Notes under the pieces: model-generated
The model's input: only the letters and a program-made list of their open reading frames with translations
Database searches by the model: none
Told to the model about the DNA's origin: nothing
NCBI GenBank assembly: GCA_963169875.1
Contig: CAUJEL010000001.1
Coordinates: 1 to 45,484 of the forward strand
Source: Candidatus Zhuqueibacterota bacterium
GTDB lineage: Bacteria > Zhuqueibacterota > Zhuqueibacteria > Residuimicrobiales > Residuimicrobiaceae
DNA length: 45,484 nt
Reading direction: 5' to 3'
Position numbers and translations under genes: made by a program
Shown: in pieces, positions 6,661 through 45,030 of the stretch
Position numbering within the stretch: the stretch's first letter is position 1
Layout of the letters: every line of letters begins with the position of its first letter

Positions 6661-6777
6661 GCCTGAATAATTCCCGACCATAAAGTTCACGAAGAAAATA
6701 ACCTGATAAACACATTAAATAATTAAAATTAGTAAACTATCCTTCGTGGTCTTCGAGGTGTTGTTCATTTCCGATAT
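6661..6777. repeat. Degraded dispersed repeat, copy E
   Basis: It begins GCCTGAATAATT directly after the smpB stop, then TTCACGAAGAAAATAA, an AT-rich middle, and ends CCTTCGTGGTCTTCGAGG...TTCATTTCC. The order and orientation match the 16307-16480 copy, but sequence identity is low. CACGAAG near the left end recurs inverted as CTTCGTG near the right end, giving imperfect terminal inverted repeats. Confidence 0.5.
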
Positions 6778-6865
6778 TTGAATGATATAGCCTACTATTA
6801 ATTTAATTTTTAAAGCTATTTGTAGTGTAGTTTATAAATATTGCTAAAATTATCACTTTGGTGTC

Positions 6866-6911
6866 AATCATTAAGATAGCCATCTTTGTGTCTCTGCGCC
6901 TCTGTGGTTTT
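6866..6911. repeat. Decayed repeat fragment, copy F
   Basis: TCAATCATTAA and CTTTGTGTCTCTGCGCCTCTG in this stretch line up with TCAATCATCAA and CTTTGCGTACCTCTGCGTCC of the better copies. It lies just upstream of tyrS and extends the open frame without being part of the protein. Confidence 0.45.
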
Positions 6912-6945: not shown

Positions 6946-8247
6946 ATGGAGAAAATAAGCGTGATCCAGGGAAATGTATATCAGGAAATGGGGCGGCGGG
7001 GGTTCATACAGCAGGTGACCGATCCAGAACCGCTGCAGGATATGTTGCAAAAGGAAGCGGTGACCTGCTATGTCGGCTTTGATCCCACGGCGGACAGCCT
7101 GCATGTGGGCCATCTCATGGCCATCATGGGCATGTCGCAGCTGCAGCGCCACGGTCACCGTCCCATCGCCATCATCGGCGGCGGCACCGCCATGGTGGGC
7201 GATCCCACCGGCAAGACCGAGATGCGCAAAATGCTCACCCGCGAGCAGATCGTCGCCAATGGGGAAAAATTCAAGGTGCAATTCAGCCGTTACCTCGATT
7301 TCGGCCCGGACAAAGCCCTGATGGTGGATAATTATGACTGGCTGGGTGAGTTGAAGTATATCGAATTCCTCCGCGATATCGGCCGCCATTTCAGCGTCAA
7401 TCGCATGTTGACCTACGAGACCTATAAAATGCGGCTGGAAAAGGGGTTGTCGTTCCTGGAATTCAATTACCAGCTGCTGCAGGCCTATGATTTTCTCATG
7501 CTGTTCAAAACCCACGGCTGCCGTTTGCAGATGGGCGGCGATGACCAGTGGGCCAACATCCTCGCGGGCGCGGATCTGATCCGCCGCGTGGAAGAGTGTG
7601 ATGCCTATGGATTGACCTTTCCGCTCCTGACCACAGCCGCGGGCAAGAAGATGGGCAAAACCGAGTCGGGCGCGGTGTGGCTCGATCCGGAAAAAACGTC
7701 GCCCTATGAGTATTACCAGTACTGGTACAACAGCGACGATCGCGATGTGGCGCGTTTTCTCGGTTTTTTCACCTATCTGCCCATGGAGGAGATCGAAACA
7801 GTGAAGGAGTTGCAGGGCGCAGATCTCAACAGCGCCAAGGTTGTGCTCGCCTACGAGGCGACGTGCATCACGCATGGTGAAACGGCGGCGCAGGAGGCGA
7901 TGCGCGCAGCGGCAGCGGCTTTCGGTTGCAGAGAGATCCCTGCTGCATTGTTGCCCTCCAGTTCGGTGCCGCGCGGGGCTGTGACTGGAAATGAAGCAGC
8001 GATGCCTGGCAGTGACCTGACACCCGCGCAACTGGCAGCGGCGCCCAGACTGGTCGATGTGATGGCGGAACTGGGGCTGGTCGCATCCAAAGGGGATGCG
8101 CGGCGGCTGATTCAGGGCGGCGGCGTCTATCTCAACAACGAACGCGTTGATGACATTAATTTCAGCCTCAGTATGGCCCTGGTGCAGGAGGGGCGTATCG
8201 TGCTGCGTCTGGGGAAGAAGCGGTTCCATCAACTGGTGATCAGGTAG
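6946..8247 (+). CDS. tyrS: Tyrosyl-tRNA synthetase, bacterial type
   Basis: A 433-residue class I synthetase that charges tRNA-Tyr. The HIGH signature is HVGH (53-56), within the conserved YVGFDPTADSLHVGHLM. GDDQWANI is the tRNA/tyrosine site segment and KMGKT (235-239) is the KMSKS loop. The C-terminus (about 365-433) is an S4 RNA-binding domain ending QGGGVYLNNERVDD...GRIVLRLGKKRF. I chose the ATG at 6946 because the frame upstream to a TTG at 6886 lies in a repeat remnant and is not family-like. There is no strong ribosome site. About 25 residues between the anticodon region and the S4 domain (318-345) are alanine/proline-rich and variable. The gene is monocistronic and precedes the rRNA operon. 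Confidence 0.96.
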   Translation: MEKISVIQGNVYQEMGRRGFIQQVTDPEPLQDMLQKEAVTCYVGFDPTADSLHVGHLMAIMGMSQLQRHGHRPIAIIGGGTAMVGDPTGKTEMRKMLTREQIVANGEKFKVQFSRYLDFGPDKALMVDNYDWLGELKYIEFLRDIGRHFSVNRMLTYETYKMRLEKGLSFLEFNYQLLQAYDFLMLFKTHGCRLQMGGDDQWANILAGADLIRRVEECDAYGLTFPLLTTAAGKKMGKTESGAVWLDPEKTSPYEYYQYWYNSDDRDVARFLGFFTYLPMEEIETVKELQGADLNSAKVVLAYEATCITHGETAAQEAMRAAAAAFGCREIPAALLPSSSVPRGAVTGNEAAMPGSDLTPAQLAAAPRLVDVMAELGLVASKGDARRLIQGGGVYLNNERVDDINFSLSMALVQEGRIVLRLGKKRFHQLVIR

Positions 8248-8621: not shown

Positions 8622-10179
<1,558 letters not shown>

Positions 10180-10242
10180 TGGAGAATCGCTTGCATTCAC
10201 GGTGCAAGCAGATCTCGAAACCTTGATCTTGATAGACTTTGG

Positions 10243-10258
10243 GCCTGCACGCTATTTT
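10243..10258 (+). other. 3' arm of the pre-16S processing stem
   Basis: GCCTGCACGCTATTTT is complementary to 8552-8568. A separate 12-bp hairpin follows at 10270-10306 (TAAAGATTCGAA pairing with TTCGAATCTTTA around 13 bases). Confidence 0.75.
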
Positions 10259-10352
10259 TTTTATTCTCTTAAAGATTCGAATCAGCATTCGGGCTTCGAA
10301 TCTTTATCGTCTAGGGCCAATCCTGCGATCCCTGCACGGGCCCACTCACCAT

Positions 10353-10427
<75 letters not shown>

Positions 10428-10482
10428 CACGTGCCTGGCGCTGTCCCGATGCCGCGGACAGAAGCGTTTCTCTGGCCAACTC

Positions 10483-10555
10483 GGGGCTATAGCTCAGCTG
10501 GGAGAGCGCCTGGTTTGCAACCAGGAGGCCACCGGTTCGATCCCGGTTAGCTCCA
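10483..10555 (+). tRNA. tRNA-Ala (anticodon TGC)
   Basis: Acceptor GGGGCTA/TAGCTCC with one G-T pair, anticodon stem CCTGG/CCAGG with loop TTTGCAA (anticodon TGC), T arm ACCGG-TTCGATC-CCGGT. CCA is not encoded. It is the second tRNA of the rrn spacer, a common Ile-Ala order. Confidence 0.97.
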
Positions 10556-10655
10556 CACGAGCAACAGACGATACCCTGGAGCACTCTAGTGAACAGCGCT
10601 AAAAGCGCTGCATGGTGCGAATCCATACTGCTCCGCTACGCAAGAAGTTTTTGCG

Positions 10656-10670
10656 TTGTTCTTTGACAAT
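10656..10670 (+). promoter_or_regulatory. Second boxA-type element, before 23S
   Basis: TTGTTCTTTGACAAT differs by one base from the leader copy at 8542-8556. It lies about 100 bases before the 23S gene. Confidence 0.75.
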
Positions 10671-10685
10671 TTGAAATGTAACGAT
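10667..10685 (+). other. 5' arm of the pre-23S processing stem
   Basis: CAATTTGAAATGTAACGAT pairs with ATCGTTCATTTCAAATTG at 13799-13816, with one base offset. A second complementary pair, AATAACCATCTGCTG (near 10730) and CAGCAGGTGGTTATT (near 13779), continues the stem towards the 23S ends. Confidence 0.75.
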
Positions 10686-10760
10686 CGTGGTAACAAAGGC
10701 ATATAACCTTAGAAATACCAGATGGATTTAATAACCATCTGCTGTGGACCATAGATGTTT

Positions 10761-13762
<3,002 letters not shown>

Positions 13763-13798
13763 AACTTTTATATCTTCAGCAGGTGGTTATTAGATCCT

Positions 13799-13816
13799 AT
13801 CGTTCATTTCAAATTG
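13799..13816 (+). other. 3' arm of the pre-23S processing stem
   Basis: ATCGTTCATTTCAAATTG is complementary to 10667-10685 and lies between the 23S and 5S genes. Confidence 0.75.
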
Positions 13817-13822
13817 TTGATA

Positions 13823-13940
13823 TTCCGGTGATCATAGCGTAGGTGTCACACCCGATCCCATTCCGAACTCGGAAGTTAAGCCCTACAGCGCCGATGGTAC
13901 TATATGGGAAACTGTATGGGAGAGTAGGTAGTCGCCGGAT
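13823..13940 (+). rRNA. rrf: 5S ribosomal RNA
   Basis: About 118 bases with terminal helix TCCGGTG/CGCCGGA. The conserved core CCCGATCCCATTCCGAACTCGGAAGTTAAG is present. It is the last gene of the operon; ends are estimated from the helix. Confidence 0.95.
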
Positions 13941-16300: not shown

Positions 16301-16306
16301 CGCATC

Positions 16307-16480
16307 TAACCTGAATTATATTCACCGCCAAGGACGCAGAGGTACGCAAAGAAAAGAAAAACATAAAAATAGCATTGATAACAACTTTGATGGCTGAGAT
16401 GAAATTTTAGTCAAAAATCTTTCGATAATTATGATAAAAATGGTTCAGCGGTCTTGGCGCGCTCGGCGGTTTATTCCATT
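16307..16480. repeat. Dispersed intergenic repeat, copy B (full length)
   Basis: About 174 bp with a left end containing TCACCGCCAAGGACGC and a right end GCGCTCGGCGGTTTA, which is an imperfect inverted match (11 of 14 around ACCGCC). Between them lie AGGTACGCAAAGAAAAG, an A-rich arm and an AT-rich middle. It matches 42215-42389 over its whole length in the opposite orientation and 145-247 over the left part. Confidence 0.85.
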
Positions 16481-16611
16481 ACTCCGGAAATCTTGGTGTT
16501 TTTAGCAAAATTTTAACGCAATAATTCTAATCATGAGAGAAAATAGCTTGTTTGTTGCAGCCTTTAGGCTGTTTTAGGAATAGAACAGGTGAAGTGAACA
16601 GAGGATGGTTT

Positions 16612-31082: not shown

Positions 31083-33803
31083 TTATTCCTCCTGCCACTC
31101 TTCCAGAAAAGATTCTCCTGTGAGTTCTTCGATCTTTTTGACCAGCTTTTCCATGTTGACCTTGACCACGCGGCCGGTTTTGATGTTTTTAGAGTAATAG
31201 ATCCATTCACCGGTGAGTTCATCATGCGGCGATATCTGCGTACTGTTGCCCTGATCGTCAAGGGCATAGAGTTCGCCGCCGTTTGAATAGATGCCGGATT
31301 CATTAGCAGTTGGATCCACCTTGCCGCCCACGTCGTGTAACATCACCGCTCCAGCCACATTGAGCTTGTAGCGCGGCGACGCAATTCCGATGCCCACATT
31401 ACCATTGCTTTCTGCACCAGTGACCACCAGTCGATGATGCAAAATATTGAAGGGAGAACCGGGCACCCATTCGCGAACCGCAAACAGATCCTGCGTGCTC
31501 GTGGTTTGCCCATCTTCAACCAGCAATTTATAGGTTGGCGTCGAAGTTCCGATGCCGACATTTCCATAGGGCATGACGATGTTTTTGTCTACCGTTGGCC
31601 CGAGCGTGAAGAAGCTGTGAATTTCGAGATCGTCGTTATCATTGGTTCGGAGCGTGGCGCCGGTTGGTCCCTGGCCAGAGAATGATGAATAAAGCCCAAT
31701 GGTTGGTCCCACTGCATTGAAAACTGTTAAATCAACAGGAGGGGTACTTGTGCCAACCCCGACGCGTCCTTTTTCGTAGTAGATGTCCGATCCGTTCTGC
31801 GACCACAGGCTGGTGCCCGAACCCTGTGCGGTGAGGGAGAGCCAACTTGCGCCATCGAATCCCTCAAAATCGCTGCCGGTCCAGCGCATGGTGCCTGCAT
31901 TAAAGGTCGTGGTGGAGGTGGTCATGCCGATGCGCACGGCGCCATCGACATCCAGTTTTTCCAAGGGGGCTGTGGTGCCGATGCCGACTTTGGCCAATGT
32001 ACCGTTCTGACGTTGCATGATGATGTTGCCATAGGAGTAGGGTGGCATGGTGTCTCCGGTGCGGCCGCCATCCAGATAGAGGTCGCCGCCCTGCCCGCTG
32101 GTGCCGAAACCGACACCTCGTCCAGCGTGAATATAGAGATCATAGCCTTTGCCGGCATCGGGACGGGTGACGGCATAGAGCTGTGGCCCTGTGCCTGCTA
32201 CAAGGTGATCACCCAGCGCAATGTTGCCGCGGACGTGGAGGTTTTCCTGCGGATCGGTGGTTCCGATACCGAGGCGGCCGGTGCTGGTGAGCCGCATGCG
32301 TTCGGTGGGTGTTGATCCATTCGAAAAGATCATTTCATCGTAGCGGCTGCCGATGCGGCCGTCTTCGAGGCCATCACCGCCGACGAAGGTGAGGGCTGCT
32401 CCGCCGCTGTTGATGCCGTGATTTTCCAGGCGCAGTACTTCGAGGATGGTGCCATCGAGGGCGCCGCGGACATGGAGGTTGGCGCCGGGCGCCGAGATGC
32501 CGACGCCGACGCGGCCGTCGCTGTAGTAGGTGTCATTGCCGTTTTCGAGCCAGAGCGAAGAGCCGCCGCCGCTGGTGAGGGAGACCCAGCTGCCGCCAAG
32601 ACATCCCTCAAAATCGAGTCCGGTGTACCGGATGGTGCCGTTGAAGGGTCCACCGAAGAGGGTCTCGTTGTTGTTGCCGAGGATCAGCGCGCCGCCGATT
32701 TCCATTTTTTCGCGCGGCATGGAGGTTCCGATGCCGACCTTGCCGCCATCCTCTTCGGTAAGAAGGATGTCTTGATAAGTGAAGGATGTGCTGAATTCGT
32801 CGCGCGCATAGATGTGGAGATCACTGTTGGCGTTGATCATGAATTGGGCGCCGATGGAGGAGAACGGCGGATTGAGAGATCTGTAGAGGCCCAGGGCGGG
32901 CGTGCCGTCCTTGACCACCGAGAGCTGTTCGCGCGGGACCAGGGTGCCGATGCCTGTTTTTGAAGTGGTGACGATATTCTGCGGCACGATCGGTCCTGCG
33001 GGACTGGACTGCAGTTGTGTGACAATTTCCAGATCGTTATTGGTATTGATGGAAAAGATGGCGCCATTGGGCGTGCCATCCATGAAGCCGCTGAGCAGGC
33101 TCAAGTAGCCGGTCTTGTCGCTGCCCATGACGGTGAGTTGATGGCTCAGCTGCGACGTGCCGACGCCGACTTTGCCGTCGCTGTAATGAATGCCATCGGT
33201 GACATCAAGCCATTGACTGGCGCCACCCGCGCCCGCTGTCAGCGATACCCAGCCGCTCGGGATGTACCCTTCGAAATCAGTGCCATTGTAGCGGATGGTG
33301 CCGGGCAGATAGCCGGTGTAGGCGGAAGCAACATTCTGCAGGCGCATGGCCCCTGCGATGTCCAGTTTGGCCTGGGGATCCGATGTGCCAATGCCGACGC
33401 GGGCTGCCATCCCAGTGGCGCTTGCCATTACGACATGACCGTAATTGTAGATGGGCATGGGATCTCCCTGGCGGCCGCCTTCCAGGTAGAGATTGCCGCC
33501 AAAACTGCTGGTGCCAAATCCCATGCCTTTTCCGGCTCTGATGGTGAGGCTGTAGCCCAGTCCTTCATCTTCGCGATCGCTGACATAAATCATGCGATCG
33601 CTGGCTTCCTTGAGCCGGTTGCTGAGGATGATGTCGCCCATGACGTCCAGCTTATCCTGAGGCGCGAAAGGCCCGATGCCAACCGCTCCGTCCTGAGTCA
33701 CAGTCATCAGCGTATTATCTTCTGAATTTTTGATGAGCATTTGCGCTGACGCCAGTGATGCCAGACAGAGGATGAAAACAACAAATCGTAGTCTTTTGAA
33801 CAT
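31083..33803 (-). CDS. Secreted repetitive fibre-like protein with VGIGT repeats
   Basis: A 906-residue secreted protein. A signal peptide (MFKRLRFVVFILCLASLASA) is followed by eleven copies of a beta-repeat, consensus VGIGT-x-x-P-x-x-KLxVxG, spaced irregularly. This repeat occurs in trimeric tail-fibre-like surface proteins of FCB and other bacteria. Longer modules containing GTIRY-x-G-x-DFEG, W-[VL]-SLT and YSDG-[KR]-VGVG occur three times, and residues 57-216 and 528-686 are duplicates. The C-terminus has a short charged helix (MEKLVKKIEELTGESF) but no recognisable S74 intramolecular chaperone. The start is the ATG at 33801-33803, preceded by GGGAGGAG; the open frame continues 29 residues upstream without signal-peptide features. 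Function is unknown; a cell-surface or extracellular filament role is inferred. Confidence 0.8.
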   Translation of the reverse strand: MFKRLRFVVFILCLASLASAQMLIKNSEDNTLMTVTQDGAVGIGPFAPQDKLDVMGDIILSNRLKEASDRMIYVSDREDEGLGYSLTIRAGKGMGFGTSSFGGNLYLEGGRQGDPMPIYNYGHVVMASATGMAARVGIGTSDPQAKLDIAGAMRLQNVASAYTGYLPGTIRYNGTDFEGYIPSGWVSLTAGAGGASQWLDVTDGIHYSDGKVGVGTSQLSHQLTVMGSDKTGYLSLLSGFMDGTPNGAIFSINTNNDLEIVTQLQSSPAGPIVPQNIVTTSKTGIGTLVPREQLSVVKDGTPALGLYRSLNPPFSSIGAQFMINANSDLHIYARDEFSTSFTYQDILLTEEDGGKVGIGTSMPREKMEIGGALILGNNNETLFGGPFNGTIRYTGLDFEGCLGGSWVSLTSGGGSSLWLENGNDTYYSDGRVGVGISAPGANLHVRGALDGTILEVLRLENHGINSGGAALTFVGGDGLEDGRIGSRYDEMIFSNGSTPTERMRLTSTGRLGIGTTDPQENLHVRGNIALGDHLVAGTGPQLYAVTRPDAGKGYDLYIHAGRGVGFGTSGQGGDLYLDGGRTGDTMPPYSYGNIIMQRQNGTLAKVGIGTTAPLEKLDVDGAVRIGMTTSTTTFNAGTMRWTGSDFEGFDGASWLSLTAQGSGTSLWSQNGSDIYYEKGRVGVGTSTPPVDLTVFNAVGPTIGLYSSFSGQGPTGATLRTNDNDDLEIHSFFTLGPTVDKNIVMPYGNVGIGTSTPTYKLLVEDGQTTSTQDLFAVREWVPGSPFNILHHRLVVTGAESNGNVGIGIASPRYKLNVAGAVMLHDVGGKVDPTANESGIYSNGGELYALDDQGNSTQISPHDELTGEWIYYSKNIKTGRVVKVNMEKLVKKIEELTGESFLEEWQEE
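31746..32222 (-). repeat. Internal duplication within the fibre gene (second copy; first copy 33156-33635)
   Basis: The proteins coded by 31746-32222 and 33156-33635 align through the shared blocks GYxLxIxAGxGxGFGTSxxGGxLYLxGGRxGDxMPxYxYG, VGIGT, GT[IM]R[YW], SDFEG/TDFEG and W[VL]SLTA. A partial third copy lies at 32481-32693. This indicates growth of the gene by module duplication. Confidence 0.75.
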
Positions 33804-34055
33804 GTCAAGCTCCTCCCAAAAAGACCATTTTAGAGTTAAGTTTGAAATATTTAAAGGGATTTTACCTTTTGCGCACATTGAACGTGTCACATAACTATGT
33901 CATTTTACCTGATTGCGTAACTTAAAATACTACCTTTTTTAAGAAGGAACAGTATAATTTCAATAATAATAACATATCTTTTTTCACCCTATCCCTTCAT
34001 TTGCAATTTTTAGGCCAGTTGTGAATGTTGAAAATGGAAATTGCAAACGCAGTGA
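33804..34055. other. Divergent upstream region of the fibre and HAD genes
   Basis: AT-rich. It holds the ribosome site of the fibre gene (33810-33817) and an inverted repeat ACATA-AC-TATGT (33889-33900). I cannot fix the fibre-gene promoter. Confidence 0.4.
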
Positions 34056-42138: not shown

Positions 42139-42214
42139 TGAATAACTCCTTTCCGGAAGTTTTGATGGCAAATATAGAGAAAAAAAGTCGCTTTTAAAAA
42201 CTATATTTAGCCTG

Positions 42215-42389
42215 TTCCATTCATAAACCGCCGGGCGCGCCGAGGCCGCCGAGCTATTTTTATTATAATTAATGAAAATTTATTGATTTAATTTTGATCT
42301 CAGTCATTAAAGTTGTTATCAATGCCATCTTTATGTTTTTCTATTCTTTGCGTACCTCTGCGTCCTCGTATGTGAATAATTCAGGTTAG
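42215..42389. repeat. Dispersed intergenic repeat, copy C (full length)
   Basis: About 175 bp in orientation opposite to 16307-16480 and matching it from end to end: AAACCGCCGGGCGCGCC, an AT-rich middle, TTGATCTCAGTCATTAAAG, TTGTTATCAATGCCAT, CTTTGCGTACCTCTGCGTCC, GTGAATAATTCAGG. The segment CTTGGCGGT of copy A reads CTCGTATGT here, so one end is mutated. Confidence 0.85.
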
Positions 42390-44836: not shown

Positions 44837-44859
44837 GGTTTATCCTGATGATTCACTGT

Positions 44860-45000
44860 CAGGAATGCAGAGATACGCAAAGAAAATAAAAACAGAAATC
44901 TGGCAGCAACAGCGGTTTTTATGACTGAGAATATTTACATTAAAGCTTGTTCTATCATCCCAACCAGAACAGCTCGACGCGCCCGGCGGTTAATGAATCA
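44860..45000. repeat. Diverged dispersed repeat, copy D
   Basis: In the same orientation as 16307-16480. Matching blocks are ATGCAGAGATACGCAAAGAAAA, TGACTGAGA, and CTCGACGCGCCCGGCGGTTAATGAA near the right end. It is more diverged than copies A-C. It lies between the symporter stop and its terminator, so it would be transcribed as part of the 3' untranslated region. Confidence 0.65.
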
Positions 45001-45030
45001 AACAGGTTAATACCTGAATTGCGTGATCAA

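Follow-up and report, generated by a model that had tools for sequence, protein, structure and literature searches.

What are the short repeats that lie between the genes of this 45,484-nucleotide stretch of Candidatus Zhuqueibacterota DNA (hereafter the window), and how did they reach their positions after the stop codons of genes? The initial annotation called them a MITE-like family with six copies. The label was right, and it can be made more specific: the repeats are a family of non-autonomous DNA transposons (MITEs; here family 1), with IS1380-type ends and a 4-bp YTAR target-site duplication. They add a further branch to an already familiar type of genomic parasite and do not amount to a new system. 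It is highly probable that these elements are recognised in trans by a DDE transposase of the IS1380 family and inserted at YTAR with duplication of 4 bp, and that selection then produces their bias towards gene 3' ends.

Copies in the window

A profile built from 32 copies identified four family members in the window (A, B, C and E); the remainder of the six proposed copies comprises a relic of a sister family and a doubtful fragment. The two long copies first noticed are real and stand in opposite orientation, but their limits had to be redrawn. As read from the sequence, copy A spans 16310-16589 (+ strand, 280 bp, both ends) and copy B spans 42211-42385 (- strand, full length, 175 bp). The greater length of copy A is due to a 103-bp segment (16475-16577, +) placed ahead of the true right end, GAATAGAACAGG. 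The flanks of this copy, again read from the sequence, are CTAA (16306-16309, +) and TGAA (16590-16593, +), which indicates that its duplication has decayed; the 4-bp duplication of copy B is a perfect CTAA (42386-42389 and 42207-42210, -). The left iterons of copy A occupy 16324-16351 (+; CCGCCAAG GACGCAGAG GTACGCAAAG).

The profile also bore out the truncated copy proposed at 145-247 and the diverged one at 44860-45000. The former is copy C (approximately 129-242, -), which consists of the left end and half of the core only and is flanked on its left-end side by TTAG (243-246, -), and the latter is copy E (44844-45006, +), with both ends and the flanks TTAT and TTAA. The same cannot be said of the two sites described as decayed copies. 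The region 6661-6777 (no strand assigned) was unmatched by the family-1 profile at E<1e-3; with the same terminus (CCTGAATAATTC) and CACGAAG/CTTCGTGG iterons, it is probably a decayed member of the sister MITE family, while 6866-6911 is an iteron-like fragment at most.

Contigs C139 and C120 each hold a copy that shares the additional segment of copy A (approximately 73%). Copies of this kind constitute a subfamily that may have moved between phyla. A 36-bp part of the segment matches, at 83%, a copy in a Bacteroidota MAG (L255, 2648-2683).

Family size and local expansion

The initial annotation had proposed a profile search of the genome for further copies. Applied to 1.40 Mb of the 5.0-Mb genome (the sequence surrounding end matches), the profile found 145 family elements, with both ends present in 109. 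Genome-wide, an internal 22-mer (up to 3 mismatches) gave 80 matches and the two element ends gave 93 and 116, and the reversed-pattern controls for the repeat, including those for the 22-mer and the ends, gave 0. The elements are multicopy, have a modal length of 175 bp and contain no transposase gene, as expected of MITEs. Left-end matches number 109 in this genome, 15 in the congener and 0 to 7 in each of the other 61 genomes of the class that were searched; the expansion of the family is therefore local. Identity between the youngest pairs of copies is 96%, which we counted against current mobility.

Anatomy of the ends

A family-1 element runs from CCTGAATTATTCACCGCC to GGCGGTTTATGAATAGAACAGG, with long imperfect inverted ends, and its 175-bp consensus comprises CCTGAATTATTCACCGCCGAGGACGCAGAGGTACGCAAAG, an AT-rich core and GCTCGGCGGCCTCGGCGCGCTCGGCGGTTTATGAATAGAACAGG. 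The terminal inverted repeats characteristic of MITEs are present in imperfect form (CCTGAATTATTCACCGCC and CCTGTTCTATTCATAAACCGCC) and pair at the modal spacing. Read inwards, each end consists of the terminus, an AT spacer and roughly three units of 9 bp, in which GCNRAG forms the last bases. The "ACCGCC-type" sequences originally taken as the imperfect inverted ends are indeed inverted, but they are the inner part of this longer structure. The ends and iterons are better conserved than the core (approximately 0.85-0.92 vs 0.72-0.83), a difference to which base composition could contribute.

Runs of at least three iteron units are almost confined to the elements: within the 1.40 Mb, 90 lie inside them and 2 outside, and shuffled sequence contained 0-1. 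Iterons of 9 bp, in several sequence flavours, were also found in IS1380-ended MITEs from the same class, from a Bacteroidota MAG and from a Neomarinimicrobiota MAG, and none were present at the autonomous IS1380 ends examined. They may aid transposition. It is conceivable, though unlikely, that they are binding sites for a separate factor, which promotes amplification or directs the elements to the 3' ends of genes, and that they define a distinct, widely shared miniature element.

In the family-1 copy on contig C168 (L156, about 6788-6862), a 9-bp unit of the right end has grown into a tandem array of CTCAGCGTG. Elsewhere in the class, one genome carries another repeat flavour (L044), composed of CACGGATG units and of a type common in environmental genomes. 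Motifs like CTCTGCGTCCTTGGCGG were said in the initial annotation to recur in many environmental genomes; none of six such strings was present in the literature searched.

Target-site duplication and evidence of insertion

Target-site duplications, which the initial annotation had suggested looking for, were found immediately at both sides of the elements: they are 4 bp long, with the consensus YTAR. The left and right 4-bp flanks were identical in 34 of 85 elements (shuffled mean 9.6, maximum 19), and there was no excess of flank identity at any other length, including 2 bp. Because the excess is confined to 4 bp, a TA duplication, hinted at by the TA...TA flanks, was ruled out. Elements whose duplications are intact lie nearer to the consensus than the others (88% vs 83% identity), as expected if they are younger.

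Nested elements provide direct views of filled and empty sites. One family-1 copy, on contig C133, contains a sister MITE of 204 bp (with CACGAAG iterons) between TTAA and TTAA; when the flanks of the sister MITE are joined, the resulting empty site gives uninterrupted alignments with dozens of other copies of family 1. The reverse arrangement occurs on contig C43, where a sister copy with TTAG on both sides is divided by a family-1 copy that has CTAA at each of its own ends. An empty counterpart also exists for copy A, since in another genus the same two neighbouring genes (proteins 72% and 65% identical) have no element between them. For copy B, the matches in relatives stop short of the 3' end of the neighbouring gene.

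The sister family (approximately 200 bp; IS1380-type ends CCTGCATTATTCATAAAC; CACGAAG iterons) has fewer copies than family 1; its loci lie on contigs C133 (2607-2810), C161, C46, C43, C32 and C172 (L132, L151, L092, L090, L077 and L160, respectively). Another family-1 copy, on contig C29 (L075), is interrupted at about 7124-7384 by an insert of approximately 260 bp with the ends CAGTAGTGTCCCAACG and GGGACATTACTG, possibly a third, unrelated miniature element.

The family resembles ERIC, Correia and RUP elements in being short, intergenic, present in tens to hundreds of copies, devoid of genes and bounded by inverted ends (PMC10969869; PMC4133298). Classic bacterial MITEs duplicate TA (PMC4133298), whereas family 1 duplicates 4 bp and has other ends, with no recognisable sequence relation. 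The lack of a 2-bp excess, together with the excess at exactly 4 bp, led us to reject a TA-duplicating MITE of this type. Eukaryotic piggyBac MITEs have a similar TTAA-like 4-bp target (PMC7351741), and IS1380 transposases serve as the outgroup in piggyBac trees (PMC10813416); piggyBac MITEs are, however, eukaryotic and strictly specific for TTAA, while family 1 is bacterial and uses YTAR.

Gene context

Genes were predicted with a home-made caller based on codon usage (80% coding) in the 1.40 Mb sampled around the elements, so the proportions given here are approximate. The avoidance of coding sequence described for the window extends to the whole sample: of the 109 elements with both ends, only one falls inside a predicted gene, though coding sequence holds 44% of YTAR target sites. 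Intergenic regions between divergent genes contain fewer elements than expected (15 vs 31%, p=2e-4). Nearly half of the elements (52/109) are located at most 60 bp beyond a stop codon, compared with 424 of 2256 non-coding YTAR sites (19%; OR 3.9, p=4e-11), and 18 target-site duplications overlap a stop codon (OR 2.4). This bias arises in part because YTAR contains the stop codons TAA and TAG, which are duplicated on insertion.

The initial annotation held that gene 3' ends are favoured and that the same end of the element faces the stop codon. The first part stands, but the second does not extend beyond the window: when orientation relative to stop codons was mapped across the sample, as had been proposed, no preference emerged (Fisher p=0.23 for the nearest gene and 0.57 for all flanking genes), and between tandem gene pairs the two orientations occur 37 and 32 times.

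A preference for 3' ends could also reflect active targeting, mediated by the iterons, by a host factor or by transcription, in place of random insertion at YTAR followed by selection. The enrichment near stop codons, the duplications lying over them and the near absence of iteron runs outside the elements all fit this explanation, which we nevertheless regard as rather improbable: selection against insertions in promoters and coding sequences predicts the same pattern, and the depletion of divergent regions is what selection predicts. Selection against harmful sites and the target sequence suffice to explain the distribution, and it is most probably purifying selection that shapes it.

Link to IS1380 transposons

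GTDB genomes were scanned for the terminus YTARCCTGAATWATTCACCGC, for which about one chance match was expected. The scan yielded 26 stretches, six of which adjoin IS1380 transposases identified by tblastn (in Porphyrobacter, a proteobacterium and four Lachnospiraceae records). Similar MITEs were found in the Bacteroidota MAG, in MAG BMS3Bbin03 and in the Neomarinimicrobiota MAG, and a few other stretches (L237, L258) have the terminus without iterons. No viral contigs carried the family terminus.

The IS1380 element of Porphyrobacter is 1648 bp long, has CTAA on both sides and encodes a 456-aa product matching NF033539 (4e-128) and PF13701 (4e-168). Within the class to which the window belongs, IS1380 loci show these ends too, between TTAG and TTAG (L262) and between ATAA and ATAA (L263), and the two ends at L261 (CTATTCATAAA and TTATTCAC) reproduce even the asymmetry between the ends of the MITE. 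Ends common to the MITE and autonomous IS1380 elements were recorded at L235, L240, L242, L245 and L259-L263. Family 1 therefore shares with the IS1380 family (NF033539, PF13701) the terminus CCTGAATWATTCA and, in the members examined, a 4-bp NTAN/YTAR duplication. It differs in lacking a transposase gene, in its length (175 bp vs about 1.65 kb) and in having subterminal 9-bp iterons, which none of the examined IS1380 ends contain. YTAR was assigned to IS1380 as a target from the small number of IS1380 elements considered here, and a published member of the family, IS1247, makes a 5-bp duplication (PMC3281130).

A partner transposase was not found in the same genome. A PF13701 search of this genome and of the congener detected no IS1380 transposase (the assembly is 95.6% complete, and repeats may be missing from it), and pairing of the ends over distances of up to 6 kb revealed no autonomous copy in this genome. 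The family thus looks orphaned, and its partner has presumably been lost, has escaped assembly or acts from visiting elements.

YTAR duplication is typical of IS701, which made this family the first suspect. Another transposase that duplicates 4 bp (of IS701 or a different family of the IS4 clan) might then have moved the MITE, with convergent likeness to IS1380 ends, and the lack of an IS1380 gene in the genome agrees with such a history. We consider it very unlikely, as there is no IS701 match in this genome or the congener and none of the 24 loci from the IS701 search has the terminus, while IS1380 loci have both the terminus and 4-bp duplications. IS701 was rejected as the mobiliser on these grounds, and it was probably an IS1380 enzyme that moved these very copies.

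Proposed mechanism and significance

An IS1380-family DDE transposase would recognise the MITE ends in trans and insert the 175-bp element at YTAR tetranucleotides, duplicating those 4 bp. Where insertion occurs at or just after a stop codon, the upstream gene would stay intact, because YTAR holds TAA or TAG and the duplication restores the stop triplet. Insertions in coding or promoter DNA would be lost, leaving an intergenic distribution biased towards 3' ends. That the repeat instead functions as a 3'-untranslated element or as a structured RNA (a terminator or processing site) and was spread by selection would suit its intergenic position near stop codons but is extremely improbable, given its random orientation to genes, the 4-bp duplications and nested insertions that show transposition, and the outcome of the check for conserved RNA structure suggested by the initial annotation, which found none in the repeat (covariation term -0.12; no Rfam match).

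No IS1380-derived MITE is described in the searched literature that covers both IS1380 and MITEs (ISfinder and subscription journals lay outside this search). The tie to IS1380 through the terminus, the 4-bp target and the nested insertions offers a testable origin for such a family. It also accounts for the position of the MITE behind stop codons with no need to assume a function, and it gives a terminus pattern for the annotation of relatives.

Two other features of the window deserve mention. A complete rRNA operon (16S, two tRNAs, 23S and 5S) occupies 8622-13940, and a long gene at 31083-33890 (-) contains several families of internal direct repeats (D1, D4, D6 and D7), which suggest that its predicted product is a repeat-domain protein.
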